DNA from: Candidatus Aquidulcis sp.
GTDB lineage: Bacteria > Chloroflexota > Anaerolineae > UBA4142
Direction of reading: 5' to 3'
Assembly (NCBI GenBank): GCA_020723345.1
Contig: DYJA01000019.1
Coordinates: 16,121 to 80,120, forward strand
Length of the DNA: 64,000 nucleotides
Shown here: positions 47,145-56,548 of the stretch, in pieces
How the letters are laid out: the number at the start of each line of letters is the position of its first letter
Position numbering within the stretch: the first letter of the stretch is position 1
Program-made: the position numbers and the translations under genes
Notes under the pieces: generated by a model
Seen by the model: only the letters and a program-made list of their open reading frames with translations
Database searches by the model: none
What the model was told of the DNA's origin: nothing

Positions 47145-47978
47145 TCACCCTTCGACGCGTCTCGTCATCCCCATTCCCTGCGTTGTCTTATACCCCGTCC
47201 CGCAGAAAAACGCAAAATCGGCGAGGAGATTGAGGACGCGCCACAACGCGCGCTCGCGGCTGAAATAGTTGAACGTCGCGCGTCCGATCCAGCCCGCGGC
47301 GCGAAATTCGCCGAAATCGACGATCTGCGTTTTCAACGCGTAGCGGCTGAGCGCGACATCTTGTTCGACGCGCGCGATCAGATCGTCTTCGAACGCGGGT
47401 TGCGCGAACGCGTTCCACGCGCGGAGCCAGCCGCCCCACATCTGCGCGGGGAGCGGAAACAAAATGTTGCGATGGATTTGGCGGTGCGCGGTCAGCGTCG
47501 CGAATTCGAGCGTGACGCGGTCAGCGCGATTAGACCTGACAGGTTTCTGAAAACCTGTCAGGTCTTCGGCTTGAAACCACTTGTTCACCAATTCTTCCGC
47601 GCTCGCCGCGCCTGCCCAGGGATGCGCGGCGCGGTCGGTGAGCGGCGCGCCGACGGCGAACATCGCGCTACCGAGGCGAATTTCGCGCGGCAAGTTCGGC
47701 AGAATGGTTTGCGCGAGGAGTTGGGCGAGGCGCGGTTCGAAGGCGGTAACCCTTACCCCCACCCCCGTCCCCTCCCCCGTCCTTCGACTGCGCTCAGGAC
47801 AGGGGAGGGGGGCAACGGTGAACGGTTTGTCGCCGCGCGGTTCGTGGAGCGCTTGCGCGAGCGCGGGATCGGCGCGGCGCACGAGATCCAAAAAGAGCGC
47901 GTGCGCTTCGCGTCCGTAAAAGCGCGCAGCGGGCGCGGGCGCAAGAGGTGACAGTGGAATGACGGCGGAGAGGAACAT
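47145..47978 (-). CDS. cas6: CRISPR pre-crRNA endoribonuclease Cas6
   Basis: 277 residues from MFLSAVIPLSPLAPAP. RAMP ferredoxin folds with the Cas6 C-terminal glycine-rich loop CGTGYKTTQGMGMTRR, PREIRLGSAMFAVGAPL and a helix FAQPAFEDDLIARVEQDVAL. It should cut the array transcript within repeats, leaving an 8-nt 5' tag. It lies 526 bp from the decayed end of the array. Two repeats have inserted in frame: a GGGGGTAAGGGTT/CTGAGC-type block at 47745-47816 (LPCPERSRRTGEGTGVG) and an AGACCTGACAGG palindrome at 47532-47565 (EDLTGFQKPVRS). Whether the enzyme still works is open. Confidence 0.88.
   Translation of the reverse strand: MFLSAVIPLSPLAPAPAARFYGREAHALFLDLVRRADPALAQALHEPRGDKPFTVAPLPCPERSRRTGEGTGVGVRVTAFEPRLAQLLAQTILPNLPREIRLGSAMFAVGAPLTDRAAHPWAGAASAEELVNKWFQAEDLTGFQKPVRSNRADRVTLEFATLTAHRQIHRNILFPLPAQMWGGWLRAWNAFAQPAFEDDLIARVEQDVALSRYALKTQIVDFGEFRAAGWIGRATFNYFSRERALWRVLNLLADFAFFCGTGYKTTQGMGMTRRVEG
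47532..47565. repeat. AGACCTGACAGG palindrome inside cas6
   Basis: AGACCTGACAGGTTT pairs with AAACCTGTCAGGTCT. Other copies: 28029-28067, 28158-28191, 50440-50479, 60300-60333. Confidence 0.9.
47745..47816. repeat. C-rich/G-rich palindrome with CTGAGC core inside cas6
   Basis: TACCCCCACCCCCGTCCCC and GGGGAGGGGGGCAACGG arms around CTTCGACTGCGCTCAGGAC. Similar arms form the element at 7816-7893. Confidence 0.8.
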
Positions 47979-47991
47979 TTTTAGCGTGAGG

Positions 47992-48185
47992 TTATGCGGG
48001 GACGGATTCGGCAAGGATTTGTTCAAGCGTGATGCGTCCCTGCTTGAGCGCTTGTAGGACGCGCACCAAGTGAAGTTCAAACATCATATCGTCGTCGGGA
48101 TAATCTGCTTTGATGGCTCGCTCGATCTGCTCAAGACCTCGGCGGGTAAACCGCTCTGCTGCTTCAGATGCTTCAAATCAAACAT
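47992..48185 (-). pseudogene. Frameshifted small gene upstream of cas6
   Basis: An ATG at 48185 with GGAGGAACG before it reads MFDLKHLKQQ and stops after 33 codons. In the next frame a longer reading continues EASEAAERFTRRGLEQIERA, IKADYPDDDMMFELHLVRVL and ends ILAESVPA at 47992. Adding one G after MFDL joins them into a plausible 64-residue acidic protein, so a single-base deletion is likely. Its stop is 13 bp before the cas6 start. Function unknown. Confidence 0.5.
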
Positions 48186-48503: not shown

Positions 48504-50231
48504 GTTGTTATCTCTGTTAGAGCTTCACGTGCGTTGCAACTGTACTAACGACAGGGGGAGTAAGCCAGAATGGTCTGGTTTCAATCTCTGTTAGAGCTTC
48601 ACGTGCGTTGCAACGGGCGAAAGCATTCAACCAGTACTGGCCCACCGGCAAGTTTCAATCTCTGTTAGAGCTTCACGTGCGTTGCAACACGGCGACCCCG
48701 ATTCCGTCAGCAACGGTTAGTTTCAATCTCTGTTAGAGCTTCACGTGCGTTGCAACTTGGGAGATGTCAAATCATCGTCCTCAAAGCAAGTAAGTTTCAA
48801 TCTCTGTTAGAGCTTCACGTGCGTTGCAACTTGGGAGATGTCAAATCATCGTCCTCAAAGCAAGTAAGTTTCAATCTCTGTTAGAGCTTCACGTGCGTTG
48901 CAACTCGAAGATGAAATGTGTGTCGTTCCGTTACCCAAGTTTCAATCTCTGTTAGAGCTTCACGTGCGTTGCAACCTGGTTACCGGCACATGGGCAGCGT
49001 TGCCTACGGTGAGTTTCAATCTCTGTTAGAGCTTCACGTGCGTTGCAACGTTTTCTTGGTGTAATAACCATCAGGCTTAGTTTTGTTTCAATCTCTGTTA
49101 GAGCTTCACGTGCGTTGCAACCTTGACAAGCACGGCTACACCAACCCGCCTGCCGACGTGTTTCAATCTCTGTTAGAGCTTCACGTGCGTTGCAACTCGG
49201 CAAACTGTCGGGTGGCGCGTTTGAAAAGATTGAGTTTCAATCTCTGTTAGAGCTTCACGTGCGTTGCAACAGAGCCGCTGCCCTGTGTCGGCGGTGAGTT
49301 TAAGATCGAGTTTCAATCTCTGTTAGAGCTTCACGTGCGTTGCAACGCCGCCCGCGACGAATGTCACTATGGGTCGCAACCAAGTTTCAATCTCTGTTAG
49401 AGCTTCACGTGCGTTGCAACCAGAAAAAAACTTTAGGCCCTTTTAGGGCAAGCCAGCTCGTTTCAATCTCTGTTAGAGCTTCACGTGCGTTGCAACTTAC
49501 GGTGAACCAAAGCGGTAATCGCCGTGTCCGAGTTTCAATCTCTGTTAGAGCTTCACGTGCGTTGCAACTAGACTACCCAGCGAACCTGGCAGTGAACGAA
49601 GACGCGTTTCAATCTCTGTTAGAGCTTCACGTGCGTTGCAACTAAATCGAAAAAAAACTTCGCGTCAGAAAAAGGAGGTTTCAATCTCTGTTAGAGCTTC
49701 ACGTGCGTTGCAACAAACACAAACGCCAACTTCAACTCCATGGATCAATTTGTTTCAATCTCTGTTAGAGCTTCACGTGCGTTGCAACTTCCGGTTTTTA
49801 GGGAGCATCGGCATTATTTAGTCAAGTTTCAATCTCTGTTAGAGCTTCACGTGCGTTGCAACCTGGGACTCTGTTGACGACTACATCATGTACATGCGAC
49901 GTTTCAATCTCTGTTAGAGCTTCACGTGCGTTGCAACCGTTTGCTCTAAAGCTATGAAAGCTGGCGAGAAACAGGTTTCAATCTCTGTTAGAGCTTCACG
50001 TGCGTTGCAACACGAATTATTTGTATATTCCTTTATCGTCAAAGTCGAGTTTCAATCTCTGTTAGAGCTTCACGTGCGTTGCAACACGTCCCTGACCGCT
50101 AAGTGGGCTGCTGACCAGAGTTTCAATCTCTGTTAGAGCTTCACGTGCGTTGCAACAAACACCGTCGAGCAACAGAACATCATTGACAGGTTGAGTTTCA
50201 ATCTCTGTTAGAGCTTCACGTGCGTTGCAAC
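48504..50231 (-). CRISPR. CRISPR array, 24 repeats of 37 bp and 23 spacers
   Basis: On the plus strand repeats start GTTTCAATCTCTGTTAGAGC and end TTCACGTGCGTTGCAAC. Read on the minus strand they end in ATTGAAAC, the usual 8-nt crRNA 5' tag, so the array is transcribed on the minus strand. Spacers are 31-39 nt. The low-coordinate repeat (48504-48540) is altered at its 5' end (GTTGTTATCT in place of GTTTCAATCT), as expected of the leader-distal end; the high-coordinate repeat (50195-50231) is intact and next to the leader. Spacers 4 (48757-48793) and 5 (48831-48867) are identical. cas6 lies beyond the distal end; effector genes lie beyond the leader, on the same strand. Confidence 0.98.
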
Positions 50232-50500: not shown

Positions 50501-51307
50501 CTACTTTTCGGTGACGGTGATTTTCACCTTGCCGCAATCTTTCGAGCGGAACCCGCCGATGACTTGAATGTTCTCCAGACACCCTTTGATCAGTTTTTCG
50601 TAGATCGTTTGCGCCGACCACGCGGGATCATCCAGCCAGCGATCCACTTTGCCTCTCGCTCCCAAGTTGCGCGCCTGTCCAAGCGTCCAGTGCCGCAGAT
50701 CGTCGCGTTGCAAAACCTGGAGCGTCCCTACGAATTTGATTTTCTCATTGACGACATACCACGAACGATTCGCCCCTTCGACGCCGGTCTCCGTCTCGCG
50801 ATCAATCCGCAACGAGTACAGTTCCTCGTCGGTGCGACCTTGCCCCTCCGCCAACTTGAGAAACGGCACACGCACAAAGCCAAGCAAGGTTTGCGCGCCC
50901 AGAAGATAGCACGCCGGGCAAATCGGATCGCCGTACTTGTTGTACGTGCAGGGTTCTTTGTACTCTCGGTATTCCCTGATCTCAACCCGCTTTTTCGCCT
51001 CGACCCATTGCTTGTCATTGAGGATTCTTTTCTCGTCGTCAGATGCGCGTCCGGGGATGCACGGCTGCACACCTGCCTTGCGCCATTCCTTTTTCGACGC
51101 GTCAAAGTACTCGCCAATCAAAAAGCGTTCGATCTGGTTTCGCCACGCGCCTTTGAGCGTTGTGGACGGCACGATGGCTTGGTTCTGCAAGCGCACAATC
51201 GAATTCTCGATCGATGTGAACACATCGCGCGTTGCGCCAATGTGCAACGGCGACAATGTTTCGAGCGTGACCGTGTACTCTTTCCATTGCGGTAAAAGCG
51301 CGCTCAT
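50501..51307 (-). CDS. cas7: Cas7-like RAMP protein (Csm3-like), type III effector backbone
   Basis: 268 residues. RAMP features: LETLSPLHIGATRDVF, the IVPSTTLKGAWRNQIE helix start (family SLKG motif), Cys pair CPACYLLGA as in Csm3 CxxCRLFG, and C-terminal glycine-rich VIGGFRSKDCGKVKI. In Csm3 the segment IDSPVIK holds the Asp that cuts target RNA; here the aligned segment reads IENSIVR, so Glu34 replaces Asp. Backbone binding of crRNA is likely, but target RNA cleavage may be lost or weakened. It is the only Cas7-like protein in the locus. Its ATG overlaps the small-subunit stop. Confidence 0.82.
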   Translation of the reverse strand: MSALLPQWKEYTVTLETLSPLHIGATRDVFTSIENSIVRLQNQAIVPSTTLKGAWRNQIERFLIGEYFDASKKEWRKAGVQPCIPGRASDDEKRILNDKQWVEAKKRVEIREYREYKEPCTYNKYGDPICPACYLLGAQTLLGFVRVPFLKLAEGQGRTDEELYSLRIDRETETGVEGANRSWYVVNEKIKFVGTLQVLQRDDLRHWTLGQARNLGARGKVDRWLDDPAWSAQTIYEKLIKGCLENIQVIGGFRSKDCGKVKITVTEK

Positions 51308-51675
51308 ACCTCTTCCTCCTTCAAAGTTTGCAAAGCAATTGCATCCAACTTGCGGATGAGAAATCCTTTGAGCGAAACTGGTTTATCGAGTCCATTCGCG
51401 CTCGCGACGAACTCGTAGAATTTGTCATAGATATCGGAACGCGCCACCTGCCTCTCTTGCCCTCCGATCCGGATTCGATCCAAGTAATTTTGTTCCGATT
51501 CCTTGCGGTCTTTGAGAATCGCTTGGACTTCGGGCAAGCCGTATCGCTCCAAGACCCGCCCCATCGTGTCAAGAAACCGGCTGGACAGCACAGTGTCTTT
51601 CCTGTCCAAGTACGCGCGCAATTCGGCGTCTTTTTCTGCCGCGCGGATAAATTCTTCAACAGTTCTAACTGACAT
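51304..51675 (-). CDS. Small effector subunit (Cas11-like)
   Basis: 123 residues, predicted all-helical (TVEEFIRAAEKDAELRAYLD, FLDTMGRVLERYGLPEVQAI, SDIYDKFYEFVASANG). Its size, helical content and place between the two RAMP genes are those of Csm2/Cmr5-type Cas11 subunits, which line the target strand groove. No sequence motif proves it. It overlaps the cas5-like gene by 11 bp and the cas7-like gene by 4 bp. Confidence 0.65.
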   Translation of the reverse strand: MSVRTVEEFIRAAEKDAELRAYLDRKDTVLSSRFLDTMGRVLERYGLPEVQAILKDRKESEQNYLDRIRIGGQERQVARSDIYDKFYEFVASANGLDKPVSLKGFLIRKLDAIALQTLKEEEV

Positions 51676-52351
51676 TGGCGTCTCCTTTCGTCACGAGAAA
51701 TGCAGGCGCGGTCACACGACTTGGCTCGAACCACGCCGGTTTGTACACGCCATCCGTTGGCGAAATGGCATCCAACAAATATCCATAGCGCAACCAGCCC
51801 GCCAGTTGTGCCGAAATTCCAAAGTGTTCCAAGCAATCAACCGGGATACGCGTTTTGAGCGTGCCCACCACGCGATCCTTTTCCAAATCCACATCGATCC
51901 GCTTTCGCACCGTGAGCGCACAATGACCAAACCCCTTGCTCTTGAACGCACCCAGTGATACCGGCACCGGAATCTTTTCTCCCAAGTTGGCGGTATGGTC
52001 GTTGATGAGAATAAAGACCGCGCCCTGAACACCCTTGTCTAAATATTCGACCGTGATCGGCAAGCGCGCCGTATCCAATTCGCGTTCGCGCGGCGCAAAT
52101 GTGAATCGGCGAATGAATCGCTCGACGTTGGGCGTTGTCCAAAAGCCCGCCGCGTGGAGAAATTTGGTAGGTGGATATCTTCCCTCTGCATCTAGGTCGC
52201 GATCAATGCCCAGCGCTTCGCGCAATGCGCCGCTGATCGCCGAGTACGGAATCGTCCGCACACATGGACGCCACGTCCCTTTTTTCTGCCGCTCGCCGAT
52301 ACAGACCGGCGACAGCACATCCAGTTGATATTGCCAGAAAGATTTGATCAT
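51665..52351 (-). CDS. cas5: Cas5-like RAMP protein (Csm4/Csx10-like)
   Basis: 228 residues. Starts MIKSFWQYQLDVLSPVCIGE, with PYSAISGALREALG in the place of the RAMP LKG helix and the glycine-rich loop LGAFKSKGFGHCALTV, as in Csm4/Cas5-group proteins that cap the crRNA 5' tag and contact Cas10. The gene follows cas10 by 6 bp. Assignment as Cas5 rather than a second Cas7 rests on position and the single G-rich loop. Confidence 0.75.
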   Translation of the reverse strand: MIKSFWQYQLDVLSPVCIGERQKKGTWRPCVRTIPYSAISGALREALGIDRDLDAEGRYPPTKFLHAAGFWTTPNVERFIRRFTFAPRERELDTARLPITVEYLDKGVQGAVFILINDHTANLGEKIPVPVSLGAFKSKGFGHCALTVRKRIDVDLEKDRVVGTLKTRIPVDCLEHFGISAQLAGWLRYGYLLDAISPTDGVYKPAWFEPSRVTAPAFLVTKGDANVS

Positions 52352-52357
52352 TGCGTC

Positions 52358-54652
52358 TCACCACCCGACGATTTTGTAGTAATCCAAGATTTGGCGTGCA
52401 GTCAACTGCCCGCTCCGAAACTCCCGCCACACGTCCTCAGGCAAGTGACGCGTCGCTCTATGCGCGCGCATTTCCTTTTCCTCTTTATGCCATGCTTCGA
52501 GCATCATCGCTTGCGGCAGCACCCGCGTGCCGGAAATCCTCTCTTGCTCGACCAGGTCGTGCAGAAAACGGCTCGAGGCAGTTCGCCCTGCGCCCAACTC
52601 GATCTTCTGCAGAGTCATCAACTGCCCTGCGCCAATCACCAAGCGCGCATTGCGCGTTGGCATTTGCAGATTGATCAGCGCGGCTGGCTTTTCGAGAAAC
52701 CGCCAGTGCTCGTTGTACGGATACTTGACGTTGGAGACGCTGATCGCCAATCGCACTGGCGCGGCGTCAGCGCATTTCGGAAAATACTTGGTCAGCAGTT
52801 CCTGAAATCGCTCGATGACGCGCCCTATTGCCGCGCCTTTTTCAACCCGCAGCACGTACAAATCTTTGAAAGGCGCGCCGTCCTCCAAACTCTCGACGTG
52901 CGACTTGGGAAACCATCCTCCGCCTTCATCCTGTTTCAACCAGGCGAAGAATTCATCCAGCAAAGCGCGATAGTCATTTGTGAAATCGGCGAGCAAAGCA
53001 AAGGTACGCAAGTTTTCTTTGACTTGCGCGCGCAACGCTTCATCGAGCGCGGCGAGCGGTCCCTGATCCACATACTGCTCAAACAAGTCGCGCACGATGC
53101 GTCCCAGCGTTTCATAGTCGGCGAGGAAAAAGCGCACCCATGCCACATCTACGCTTTGCTCCAGTTCGTCCCATTCACTCAAATTGGAAAAACTCTTCCC
53201 AGTTTTATCTCGCCCCATATTTCGCGCACTGAAACACTTGTCGCACACATCATCGCGCAAGTCCGTTTCTACGTCCGGCGGGGGCCAATGCGTCGTCGCC
53301 GGACGCATCTGGCACACTTCGCACAGCGGCGGCGCGATGACGGGCGCCAGATCTGAATGGAGCGAAGTTTCTATGCAATCTATAGTCAATGGCTTCTCGG
53401 GTAATTGCTTGAGCGCATTTCGCACGCGATCCAACTCGCTTTGGACCTTCTTTTGTTCCTCCTGCAATGCCACAAATGCCGGCTCTTTTCGCAACTGCAT
53501 TTCGATTGTTTTGTCGCCGCGCGCTGTCATTCCGATCCGTTTGTTCTCGCCTTTTAGCCGTTCGCGCAGTTGCCGATCTGTCTGCTCAAGGTCTGGCAAG
53601 AGCGCAAACGGTTCATTCAATTCGGCGCAATGCTGTTCGAGCAGTTTGCGCCCACGCGCTTCAAAGACCCCCGCGTCGAGCAACGCCAAAGCGGTCTCCG
53701 CGACTCGGCAATCAACGCCCAAGCCAGCCGCCAGGAATCTCTCAGCCAACGAACGCAGCGCAAGCGACTCTTCGGCGGGCAAAAAGAGCAAAGCCGTATC
53801 TGCCGTTCGCAACAACACGTTATCGCCACATTGCTGTTGTAACTCATCCATCAATTGCTGACGTTGGAGGAAGACATTCAGATCCACGGCGCGCACCAGC
53901 GTTTGCGGAAAATGGAACCGACATTCGATCACACGGTACCGCCATCTTAGTTCGGCTTGGGTAATCGTCTGGGCACTTTGATTTTGATAAATCGGCGCAA
54001 GCGCAGATAAATTTGTCCATGCGCCCCGCAGAGCGCGATAGAATTTGCCAACCAATTCAACGTGCGTGTGCAACGAGGTTACATTGCGCGGTGGTTTTTT
54101 GTCTTCCGGAGTCAGCGTTAGCCAATACGCATAATCACGCAAAAAACGCTCAGATGTTACATTGGGATCTTTAATCTGGTCGAGCAAAGTTGCAAGAGAC
54201 GGCTCGTCATCTGCCGCTGCCCACCCCCGCCGCTGCGGATTCTCCTTTTCGCGCATCGCGTAATAGCCCGGGTTCCACAGCCGATAAACTCCGTCGGTGT
54301 CAGCACGGACTTGCGCTGGGATGCGGTTAGTAATCGAGCGTGAGGTTGCCGCCGCCAGATGATCCGCTAGCAACAAGCAGAACAGATTTTGCTTACTTGC
54401 TGCGTCAGGCAACGGGTATCCTGTAATGTTCTGATTGTCTCCTATCTGATCGTGATGGTAACGAATACCCTGCCAGGTAGATGTGGCGGGTTCCGGATAT
54501 TTTGTTTTCCCCCAATCTATCCATTGGAAACAATGCCCTCCCTCTTCGCCTGACAAAGCGAACAGCGACTTGGAATCGGCGCCCATCGCTTTCAAGACTT
54601 TGTCTGTGTCAACTAGTTTGCCAATATCATGCATCTCTGGTATGAAATTCAT
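52358..54652 (-). CDS. cas10: Cas10-like large subunit with HD domain, GGDD motif absent
   Basis: 764 residues from MNFIPEMHDIGKLVDT; GGGAG lies upstream, and the longer frame to 54721 reads into the leader element. HD-domain residues: MHDIGK, GGHCFQW, IRYHHDQ and ADHLAAATSR, so the DNA-cleaving site looks complete. A zinc finger follows (CEVCQMRP ... CDKCFSAR), then the second Palm region begins VAWVRFFLADYETLGRIV. Where active Cas10 has GGDD the sequence reads DGAPFKDLYVLRVEKG, so cyclic-oligoadenylate synthesis is not expected. Loss of GGDD with an intact HD is reported for subtypes III-C and III-F. Confidence 0.85.
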   Translation of the reverse strand: MNFIPEMHDIGKLVDTDKVLKAMGADSKSLFALSGEEGGHCFQWIDWGKTKYPEPATSTWQGIRYHHDQIGDNQNITGYPLPDAASKQNLFCLLLADHLAAATSRSITNRIPAQVRADTDGVYRLWNPGYYAMREKENPQRRGWAAADDEPSLATLLDQIKDPNVTSERFLRDYAYWLTLTPEDKKPPRNVTSLHTHVELVGKFYRALRGAWTNLSALAPIYQNQSAQTITQAELRWRYRVIECRFHFPQTLVRAVDLNVFLQRQQLMDELQQQCGDNVLLRTADTALLFLPAEESLALRSLAERFLAAGLGVDCRVAETALALLDAGVFEARGRKLLEQHCAELNEPFALLPDLEQTDRQLRERLKGENKRIGMTARGDKTIEMQLRKEPAFVALQEEQKKVQSELDRVRNALKQLPEKPLTIDCIETSLHSDLAPVIAPPLCEVCQMRPATTHWPPPDVETDLRDDVCDKCFSARNMGRDKTGKSFSNLSEWDELEQSVDVAWVRFFLADYETLGRIVRDLFEQYVDQGPLAALDEALRAQVKENLRTFALLADFTNDYRALLDEFFAWLKQDEGGGWFPKSHVESLEDGAPFKDLYVLRVEKGAAIGRVIERFQELLTKYFPKCADAAPVRLAISVSNVKYPYNEHWRFLEKPAALINLQMPTRNARLVIGAGQLMTLQKIELGAGRTASSRFLHDLVEQERISGTRVLPQAMMLEAWHKEEKEMRAHRATRHLPEDVWREFRSGQLTARQILDYYKIVGW

Positions 54653-54667
54653 AGTCGTCGCCACTCC

Positions 54668-54850
54668 CAGAAAACAGAGACGCGCCATCAACGCGCGCAA
54701 GCATCCAATCGCTTGCCGCATCGCGGCGCGTCGTCCGCATCCTGCTCGATTGCCCGGGTCAAGTTCGCGTGCCGATGTCGTCCGCTCAACACTCTCTCCC
54801 GTGTGCTATTCTTCTATCGCTATTCTATCACATCTCCCGTAACCCACCAA
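54668..54850 (-). promoter_or_regulatory. Promoter and leader element A of the cas10 operon
   Basis: On the minus strand TTGGTG (54850-54845), 17-nt spacer, TAGAAT (54827-54822). The transcript leader then reads CACACGGGAGAGAGTG, GCGGACGAC, CACGCGAACTTGACCCGGG, CAGGATGCGGA and GGATGCTTGCGCGCG, ending just before the cas10 ribosome site. Element B at 56179-56359 is a near copy, with changes clustered in presumptive loops and the promoter kept. This looks like a shared regulated promoter with a structured leader. Confidence 0.7.
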
Positions 54851-54878
54851 ATTCATTTCTCGGAATTTGGGATTGGGT

Positions 54879-56072
54879 TCATTGGGATTGAGGTTTCTCG
54901 CGCAGATACCGATCCCACGACACGTACGTCTGCCGCGCGATGAAAAAAATCGTGAGTTGATCGTCGAGCCATTGGTGGATGCCGCGCGTGGCTTGAAAGA
55001 CCTGGCGCAAAACGAACGGCACCGGCACGGCAATCAGCGCAGTCCACAACAAATTGACGACCGTGACCCACTCGGAAACTTTTGCCTGTTTGGCATCCAA
55101 AAATTGCAGCACAATCGGCAGCGCGTACACCGTCAGGAAATAACCGACCGCCGCGAGGAGAATGAGCAAGAACACACTCACCGCCAGAATCGTACCGAAC
55201 AATCCCGCCCACCGTCCGATCCGAATCCATCTCATGTCCCATTTGCCCAGGAAAGTGGTCGCGTCGCGCCAACCGAACAACATGGCATCCCAGTTTTGCA
55301 TTTGCCGCGCGAGCGCGCGCTGGAGTTTGACTTCATCTTTTGGCTTGAGCGCGACCGGCTCGGGCGAACGCTTGCCAATCACGAGTTGTTCGCCCTGATA
55401 AAACAATTTCCCGCCGATGCTCCACTTTTTCAAGTGACGCTGAACCACCGGGACGGTATAGCGCGGCAAACCGGCTCGCAGGTTCTGGAGACGACTGCGC
55501 TCGGCTTCCAAACGCGATTCGGAAAGCAGGCGCCGCCAATCCTCCTGGCTCGCGCGCGCGGCTTTACCCTGCGAGCGCGGTTGCGGCGGGCGGAGATACC
55601 AAAACGTATCCGCGATGCTCATCCCCGCCGTAAACGCGCGCGCGCTTGCTGCGGATACGGCATCGAGCCGCGCCCAGACTTGCAAACTCCACGCGTTCAA
55701 CAGATCGCGCAGCGCGCGCGGTTCGTAGAAATGCGGCGACGCGCCCGACAACCAATCGCGCGTCTTGAGCGGCAAGGCGTAGATTTCCTTCGTCAACTCC
55801 GACGCCTTGTCGTCTGGCTCGAACCCCAATTCGCGATAGATTTGGACGACTCGCTGCGCGGCAAAGGCGAATGCCTCCGGCGCCTTTTCGACCGCGCCAT
55901 CCGAAACGACGAGACGCGGCGTATAGTCCGGCGGGCGCGCGACGGATTGCGACGGCGGACGCGTCCCCCGGCGCAAATGTCCCAGCGTTTCGGCAACCGA
56001 CCAGCCCAATAAAAATGCTGCGGTCACGCGCGTTTGCGCGGTCGAGTTTGAGGATTTTTGTTCTGCACTCAT
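54879..56072 (-). CDS. Unknown protein with two C-terminal membrane segments, upstream of cas10
   Basis: 397 residues from the ATG at 56072 (MSAEQKSSNSTAQTRV). The N-terminal ~290 residues are soluble, mostly helical, with FLLGWSVAETLGHLRRG, YRELGFEPDDKASELTKEIY and FYEPRALRDLLNAW. Two membrane segments follow (WAGLFGTILAVSVFLLILLA and WVTVVNLLWTALIAVPVPFV), then a short basic tail. I recognise no family. It lies directly upstream of the cas10 promoter on the same strand and shares a near-identical promoter/leader (element B), so it is a candidate membrane accessory of the type III system. Confidence 0.7.
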   Translation of the reverse strand: MSAEQKSSNSTAQTRVTAAFLLGWSVAETLGHLRRGTRPPSQSVARPPDYTPRLVVSDGAVEKAPEAFAFAAQRVVQIYRELGFEPDDKASELTKEIYALPLKTRDWLSGASPHFYEPRALRDLLNAWSLQVWARLDAVSAASARAFTAGMSIADTFWYLRPPQPRSQGKAARASQEDWRRLLSESRLEAERSRLQNLRAGLPRYTVPVVQRHLKKWSIGGKLFYQGEQLVIGKRSPEPVALKPKDEVKLQRALARQMQNWDAMLFGWRDATTFLGKWDMRWIRIGRWAGLFGTILAVSVFLLILLAAVGYFLTVYALPIVLQFLDAKQAKVSEWVTVVNLLWTALIAVPVPFVLRQVFQATRGIHQWLDDQLTIFFIARQTYVSWDRYLREKPQSQ

Positions 56073-56099
56073 TGACAAAACTCAAGAGCGTGTTATAAT
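56072..56099 (+). promoter_or_regulatory. Strong consensus promoter for a small RNA
   Basis: TTGACA at 56072-56077, a 16-nt spacer and TATAAT at 56094-56099. It overlaps the start codon of the minus-strand gene and points away from it. Confidence 0.8.
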
Positions 56100-56105
56100 A
56101 CGGTT

Positions 56106-56172
56106 GCTCGTTCGGTAGTGCTTGCACCTATGTCCGCTATGGATAAGGTCCATCGCTATCGGACGGGTTTTT
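56106..56172 (+). ncRNA. Predicted small RNA antisense to the leader of the upstream gene
   Basis: From about 7 nt after the -10 box to a Rho-independent terminator: GTCCG (56132-56136) pairs with CGGAC (56160-56164), ATGGA with TCCAT inside, then GGGTTTTT. About 67 nt; no ribosome site or convincing ORF. It is transcribed across the region that forms the 5' untranslated leader of the minus-strand gene (promoter at 56359, start codon at 56072), so it is fully antisense to that leader. Confidence 0.6.
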
Positions 56173-56178
56173 GTTTCG

Positions 56179-56359
56179 AGAAAACAACACGCGCTACACC
56201 CGCGCGCAAGCATCTTCCGCCTGCGCGTGGGTACGGCGCGTATTCCGCATCCTGTTCGATTACCCGGGTCAAGTTCGCGTGCCGAAGTCGTCCACTCAAC
56301 ACTCTCTCCCGCGTGCTATTCGTCTGCCGCTATTTTACCACAATTCCCGCAGTCATCAA
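56179..56359 (-). promoter_or_regulatory. Promoter and leader element B of the membrane gene
   Basis: On the minus strand TTGATG (56359-56354), 16-nt spacer, TAAAAT (56337-56332), then a leader nearly the same as element A: CACGCGGGAGAGAGTG, GTGGACGAC, CACGCGAACTTGACCCGGG, CAGGATGCGGA and GATGCTTGCGCGCGGG. The start codon is about 107 bp beyond the element. Confidence 0.7.
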
Positions 56360-56375
56360 AACGCGCGATTTTTCC

Positions 56376-56548
56376 GGGTGTAGTTCAGTTTGGGGGCGAA
56401 CAGCATCCTGAGCGGAACGAAGCGCAGCGGAGTGAAGTCGAAGGATGCGTCTTGGCACCGCAGGTGACGCTCCGCAAGCCTCCTTCGACTTCGTTGCACT
56501 CCGCTCAGGATGCTTGCTCCGCTTTTTGCCCCCAACTGAACTACACCC
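56376..56548. repeat. 173-bp inverted-repeat element (MITE-like)
   Basis: GGGTGTAGTTCAGTTTGGGG at the left end is mirrored by CCCCAACTGAACTACACCC at the right end. Nested inside are two inverted copies of the CTGAGCGGA...CGAAGGATGC repeat. No ORF of its own. It lies between the leader element and the oxidoreductase gene; no other gene is seen in 56360-56580. Confidence 0.85.

Follow-up and report, generated by a model that had tools for sequence, protein, structure and literature searches.

Leader RNAs that act as attenuators (riboswitches, T-boxes and similar) end in an intrinsic terminator, which lies between the promoter and the first gene of the operon. Among type III CRISPR systems, the III-F ones (Cas10f, Cas5f, Cas11f, Cas7f) generally possess, in the published dataset, an HD domain and neither cyclase motifs nor effectors (PMC11229360), and arrays are absent from most of their loci (PMC12669027). 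Other elements described in the vicinity of cas genes are the CreA RNAs, encoded by small RNA genes (PMC9458426), and, beside cas10, the membrane proteins Cam1, Csx23 and CorA, which have a soluble part (PMC10808066, PMC11014256, PMC10600005). The locus presented here can be compared with all of them. Its four effector genes match the PADLOC III-F models and its Cas10 has the HD and lacks the GGDD, as in the literature (PMC11229360); however, it differs from most III-F loci in having an array of 24 repeats, and also by a structured leader and, in two genomes, by an upstream gene for a membrane protein. This leader resembles the attenuators in its succession of promoter, structured RNA and GC hairpin with a T run before the first gene of the operon, but it matches no Rfam family, is tied to CRISPR operons and revealed no alternative, mutually exclusive antiterminator fold. 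As in the case of CreA, there is a small RNA gene beside cas genes, although without any repeat-like sequence above chance and without any spacer-like match. Finally, the membrane protein (397 residues) has, like Cam1, Csx23 and CorA, a soluble part and a gene beside cas10; unlike them, it carries no CARF or other signal-binding domain, and the neighbouring Cas10 has no cyclase motif.

The window, i.e., the whole stretch of 64,000 nucleotides that was analysed, belongs to a genome of 6.3 Mb (G000), and its relevant features are collected in the table. The CRISPR system is of type III-F, with one Cas7f only, together with Cas5f and Cas11f, according to PADLOC. The start of cas10f is best placed at the ATG at 54652, and the motif check (HD at residue 7, two CxxC, no GGDD or GGD[DE]) bears out the initial annotation, which had described a cas10 without GGDD next to an open reading frame of 397 residues. 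In the orientation in which it is transcribed with the cas genes, the array repeat reads GTTGCAACGCACGTGAAGCTCTAACAGAGATTGAAAC. Two adjacent spacers of the array are identical (48716-48863), the repeat-spacer unit being duplicated.

Table. Coordinates of the features in the window, with the basis of each call
Feature	Position	Strand	Basis or remarks
cas6	47145..48080	-	Pfam CRISPR_Cas6 E 4e-13
CRISPR array	48504..50231	-	24 repeats of 37 nt, 23 spacers
cas7f (RAMP)	50501..51307	-	PADLOC Cas7_IIIf E 2.5e-49; Pfam RAMPs
cas11f	51304..51675	-	PADLOC Cas11f E 1.6e-6
cas5f	51665..52351	-	PADLOC Cas5_IIIf E 4.9e-39
cas10f	52358..54652	-	PADLOC Cas10a/Cas10f E 2.6e-91; motif check
Leader copy B RNA	54671..54815	-	R1 match 130 bits; fold -70 kcal/mol
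Promoter, leader copy B	54822..54850	-	TTGGTG, 17 nt, TAGAAT; sequence and alignment
397-residue protein gene	54879..56072	-	ORF confirmed; no known family
Small-RNA unit	56072..56173	+	Promoter scan 12/12; conservation; covariation; model R2
Leader copy A RNA	56180..56325	-	Covariance model R1 match 149 bits; fold; pair counts
Promoter, leader copy A	56332..56359	-	TTGATG 56359-56354, 16 nt, TAAAAT 56337-56332; TG precedes
Palindromic dispersed repeat	56376..56548		Between alcohol-dehydrogenase gene and leader A

The leader is one element present twice, both times on the minus strand: as copy A (56180-56359), upstream, and as copy B (54671-54850). The near-identical stretches that had been reported before cas10 and before the 397-residue gene were recovered in a repeat search of the window (56234-56349 and 54724-54839, 88% identity over 116 nt), and the alignment of A and B runs from the -35 box through the terminator tail and its T run. 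Using a 160-nt copy as query, blast across the whole genome returned the second copy with an E of 3.6e-37, which rules out chance, and no third copy in the 6.3 Mb; the element is hence not shared by many unrelated genes genome-wide. Both copies begin with a promoter, continue as a structured RNA and close with a long GC hairpin and a T run, in the manner of an intrinsic terminator. The previously proposed hexamers (-35 TTGRTG, -10 TARAAT) hold for both: the promoter of copy A passes the promoter scan (9/12) and aligns with its counterparts in the relatives G001, G006 and G008, while that of copy B was identified by visual inspection of the sequence. The conserved core CACGCGGGAGAGAGTGTTGAG...GGCACGCGAACTTGACCCGGG...GAACAGGATGCGG lies in the roughly 90 nt of RNA that are 5' of the hairpin. 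The terminator hairpin of copy A (about 56241-56180) consists of ACGCGCC..GGGTGTAGCGCGT followed by TTGTTTTC, and the terminator-like hairpin of copy B lies at about 54731-54670, so placed that leader B ends 18 nt 5' of the cas10f ATG. These hairpins, as well as a convergent RNA unit at 56072-56173, had been missed in the first reading of the repeat. The palindromic element next to copy A has GGGTGTAGTTCAGTT as inverted ends and recurs, mostly in partial form, at 52 genomic sites.

With a promoter on its 5' side and, ahead of the gene, a hairpin and a T run, the leader has the arrangement of an attenuator. Its proposed helices were evaluated on five sequences, contributed by four genomes of a single family, in which standard pairs occupy 87% of the cells, against 29-53% when the helices are slid. 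The fold of the 5' domain is moderately supported by these comparisons, and only moderately because few pairs have changed on both sides. The best-supported part of the predicted structure is the terminator hairpin. The differences between A and B had been said to fall in loops: this is true of the 5' part, where most of them are in unpaired columns, but not of the terminator hairpin, where they affect both arms and the helix is retained. Neither the leader region nor the small RNA has a plausible match in Rfam, even at E up to 5; the miRNA matches that Rfam lists in the region correspond to the palindromic repeat. A degenerate CRISPR repeat of the CreA/CreR type in the leader was rejected, the similarity to the CRISPR repeat not being above that of shuffles (p 0.35-0.98, repeat strand). 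A search of the window with the spacers, as would be expected of self-regulation, gave chance matches of 11-15 nt only.

How is this element distributed? Blast against 60 relatives found it in two of them. In G006, it is directly 5' of cas10f-cas5f-cas7f-RT-cas1-cas2. In G001, a sister genome of the same genus, the only leader sits at the position of copy A in G000, adjoining the same ADH, YbaK, CPBP and EamA genes, and precedes a type III operon that differs from that of G000: an AlbA_2/HATPase_c_4/HD-zinc Cas10-like fusion comes first, with RAMPs (Csm3-like and Cas5-like) after it and then an array whose repeat departs from that of the window in two positions. The synteny between both genomes, made of the ADH-YbaK DNA (84%), the leader and the near-identical array repeats, documents what appears to be an unmistakable exchange of type III operons, in which the head element is conserved and the array repeats are nearly unchanged. 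A divergent homologue was found directly 5' of cas10f in G008; the alignment score of the whole element with each copy is above all 500 shuffles (0/500), and the 5' part alone reaches a p of at most 0.006. The three cas10f genes found in the bacterial family (G000, G006 and G008) all have a leader homologue just upstream. Its orientation is always that of the following cas operon, and from 18 to about 50 nt separate the terminator end from the first cas gene. The covariance model of the leader pair suggested in the initial annotation (R1) recognises both copies, and in 396 genomes of the class its strong matches are limited to G000 (two), G001 and G006. As for the weak matches that were followed up, those in G007 and G011 are inside open reading frames, that in G009 is away from cas genes, and the best extra one in G000 (C70, E 2.9e-4) appears within coding sequence. 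The leader core was not found in viral contigs, nor the leader in plasmids. Since it occurs before type III operons and not convincingly elsewhere in the 396 genomes, the leader is, judging from these comparisons, a head element of type III CRISPR operons in one Chloroflexota family. The type III operons of this family thereby gain a conserved RNA leader, whose terminator suggests that cas expression is gated through premature termination.

Two copies in one genome are found only in G000, a palindromic dispersed repeat adjoins copy A, and the similarity pattern is a mosaic, the 5' part of the G001 leader being nearer to copy B (77%) and its terminator nearer to copy A (70%). All this could be expected if the duplication were a by-product of recombination or insertion, functionless at both sites. 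Nonetheless, the element recurs ahead of type III operons in four genomes, its 5' part being 45-77% identical and a helix being kept as the sequence changes, and we regard a functionless by-product as most improbable. What the mosaic does suggest is that leader heads have recombined with each other, and therefore that the replacement history was not a clean one.

From the anatomy, conservation and positions of the leader, we infer an attenuator step, the orphan status of copy A and a history of operon replacement; a dedicated head and attenuator of type III operons, with copy A as an orphan and the 397-residue gene under its own promoter, is on balance the probable explanation. The hairpin of leader B would stop most transcripts as a short RNA, and the operon that this copy serves (cas10f-cas5f-cas11f-cas7f) would be made only through read-through past the hairpin, after a ligand, a protein or the ribosome had changed the leader fold. 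Copy A would be a head left behind when its operon was replaced or displaced. The former operon may have been as in G001 (AlbA_2/HATPase/HD-Cas10-like), and the displacing block would comprise the 397-residue gene, leader B and the III-F genes, the same arrangement being found in G008.

The same units, complete from promoter through RNA to terminator, might instead constitute a stand-alone noncoding RNA gene that is tied to type III loci and acts in trans, for instance on cas mRNA or together with the effector, the cas genes using other promoters. Copy A, which persists with no obvious target gene, is compatible with such a function, and so is a further -10-like box between the terminator and the gene in G001, due to which a stand-alone RNA fits better there than an attenuator. 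However, the 18 nt between the terminator and the cas10f ATG in G000 leave scant room for a second promoter, the element and the following cas operon always share their orientation, and neither similarity to the CRISPR repeat nor a spacer match links the RNA to the array, all of which makes a function in trans rather unlikely.

No support was found for copy A as the driver of the 397-residue gene. Between leader A and this gene lies a small RNA unit, convergent with the former and divergent from the latter, whose promoter (TTGACA-16-TATAAT, 56072-56099) matches the consensus in 12/12 positions of the scan and whose transcript, of about 70 nt, would form two nested helices before a T run (its own terminator). 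The terminators of the small RNA and of leader A are back to back (about 56173-56186). The small RNA is conserved, with compensatory changes, in G000, G008, G013 and G003 (homologues at L016 10129-10245, L015 12595-12713 and L017 6626-6742). Its covariance model (R2) gave strong matches in only these four of 298 genomes, plus one weak match (G042, E 0.002); precisely these four carry close members of the 397 family, from which the small RNA is always divergent. No leader precedes the orthologues of the 397-residue gene in G008, G013 and G003 (p 0.77, 0.89 and 0.07). Because of the small RNA in between, the terminators and these three orthologues, leader A probably does not serve the 397-residue gene as promoter, although read-through from it is possible. 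The duplicated element retains a regulatory character in being RNA-like and tied to type III operons, but not as the driver of this gene. In the preferred explanation, the gene would start at its own conserved promoter, back to back with the small RNA, which would terminate against leader A. The small RNA and the start of the gene have the -10 region in common. Given the near symmetry of this region (GTTATAAT/ATTATAAC), one site may initiate transcription both ways, by analogy with the bidirectional promoters described for bacteria (PMC12825309). Antisense or toxin-antitoxin-like control is a possible role of the small RNA.

The 397-residue protein has a helical soluble part (residues 1-270) and two hydrophobic segments (285-325 and 335-359). 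Searches in Pfam, NCBIfam and PADLOC gave no match, with no CARF/SAVED or other effector domain. For its AlphaFold model (pLDDT 75), Foldseek returned nothing with an E below 0.001, and the Z values of a structural aligner, at most 7.7, are in the range expected of unrelated helical proteins. The family is sparse, being present in 10/396 genomes of the class and at eight loci of the genome collection, every one of them from Chloroflexota or MAGs. In two of the ten genomes (G000 and G008) the gene is directly 5' of cas10f, and in G180 a distant member is directly 5' of a gene for a 796-residue HD/zinc Cas10-like protein (L068 1365-3752, +), so called because it matches two Cas10 models weakly but in the right order. 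This Cas10-like protein has no close relative in the 58 other genomes searched. For seven of the ten homologues no adjacency to cas genes is shown, and no such genes were found near those of G003, G025, G092, G281 and the LB3-type loci within the flanking DNA examined. In G013, an AlbA_2/HATPase gene, truncated by the contig end, adjoins the homologue.

The initial annotation had seen cas10 and the 397-residue gene as sharing their regulation through the two copies, and the protein as a strong candidate for an undescribed CRISPR accessory linked to the membrane; in this locus it would belong to the III-F system without cyclase. Such an accessory would fill a gap, since III-F systems have neither cyclase motifs nor known effectors (PMC11229360), and the homologue search near other cas10 genes did find the G008 and G180 cases; two independent adjacencies are improbable by chance. 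However, the conserved convergent small RNA and the terminators separate leader A from the gene, the three orthologues have no leader upstream, most homologues are not seen beside CRISPR loci (which, by the initial annotation's own standard, speaks in part against the idea), the gene occurs in G000 and G008 only where DNA upstream of cas10f is visible, and the protein has no effector domain. Co-regulation of an accessory is thus quite unlikely. The accessory idea taken by itself is weak because the gene seems to be equipped with a promoter of its own and to be closely linked to a small RNA, but possible because two of the ten members directly precede cas10f and a distant one precedes a Cas10-like gene. 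Even less probable, and no more than speculative, is a two-part RNA-regulated membrane arm of III-F, in which the leader would gate the cas genes, and the 397-residue protein, paired with its divergent small RNA, would be the effector replacing cyclic-oligoadenylate signalling. The leader is therefore the solid part of the result and the membrane accessory a lead with modest support. The analysis has also brought to light a small RNA whose gene is closely tied to that of a membrane protein.

A last observation concerns the G001 fusion gene (L013 5611-8808, +), which heads a minimal type III operon and encodes a protein of 1065 residues with a Schlafen/AlbA_2, a HATPase_c_4 and an HD/zinc Cas10-like part; with the last of these as query, the protein was found in one of the 60 relatives searched.
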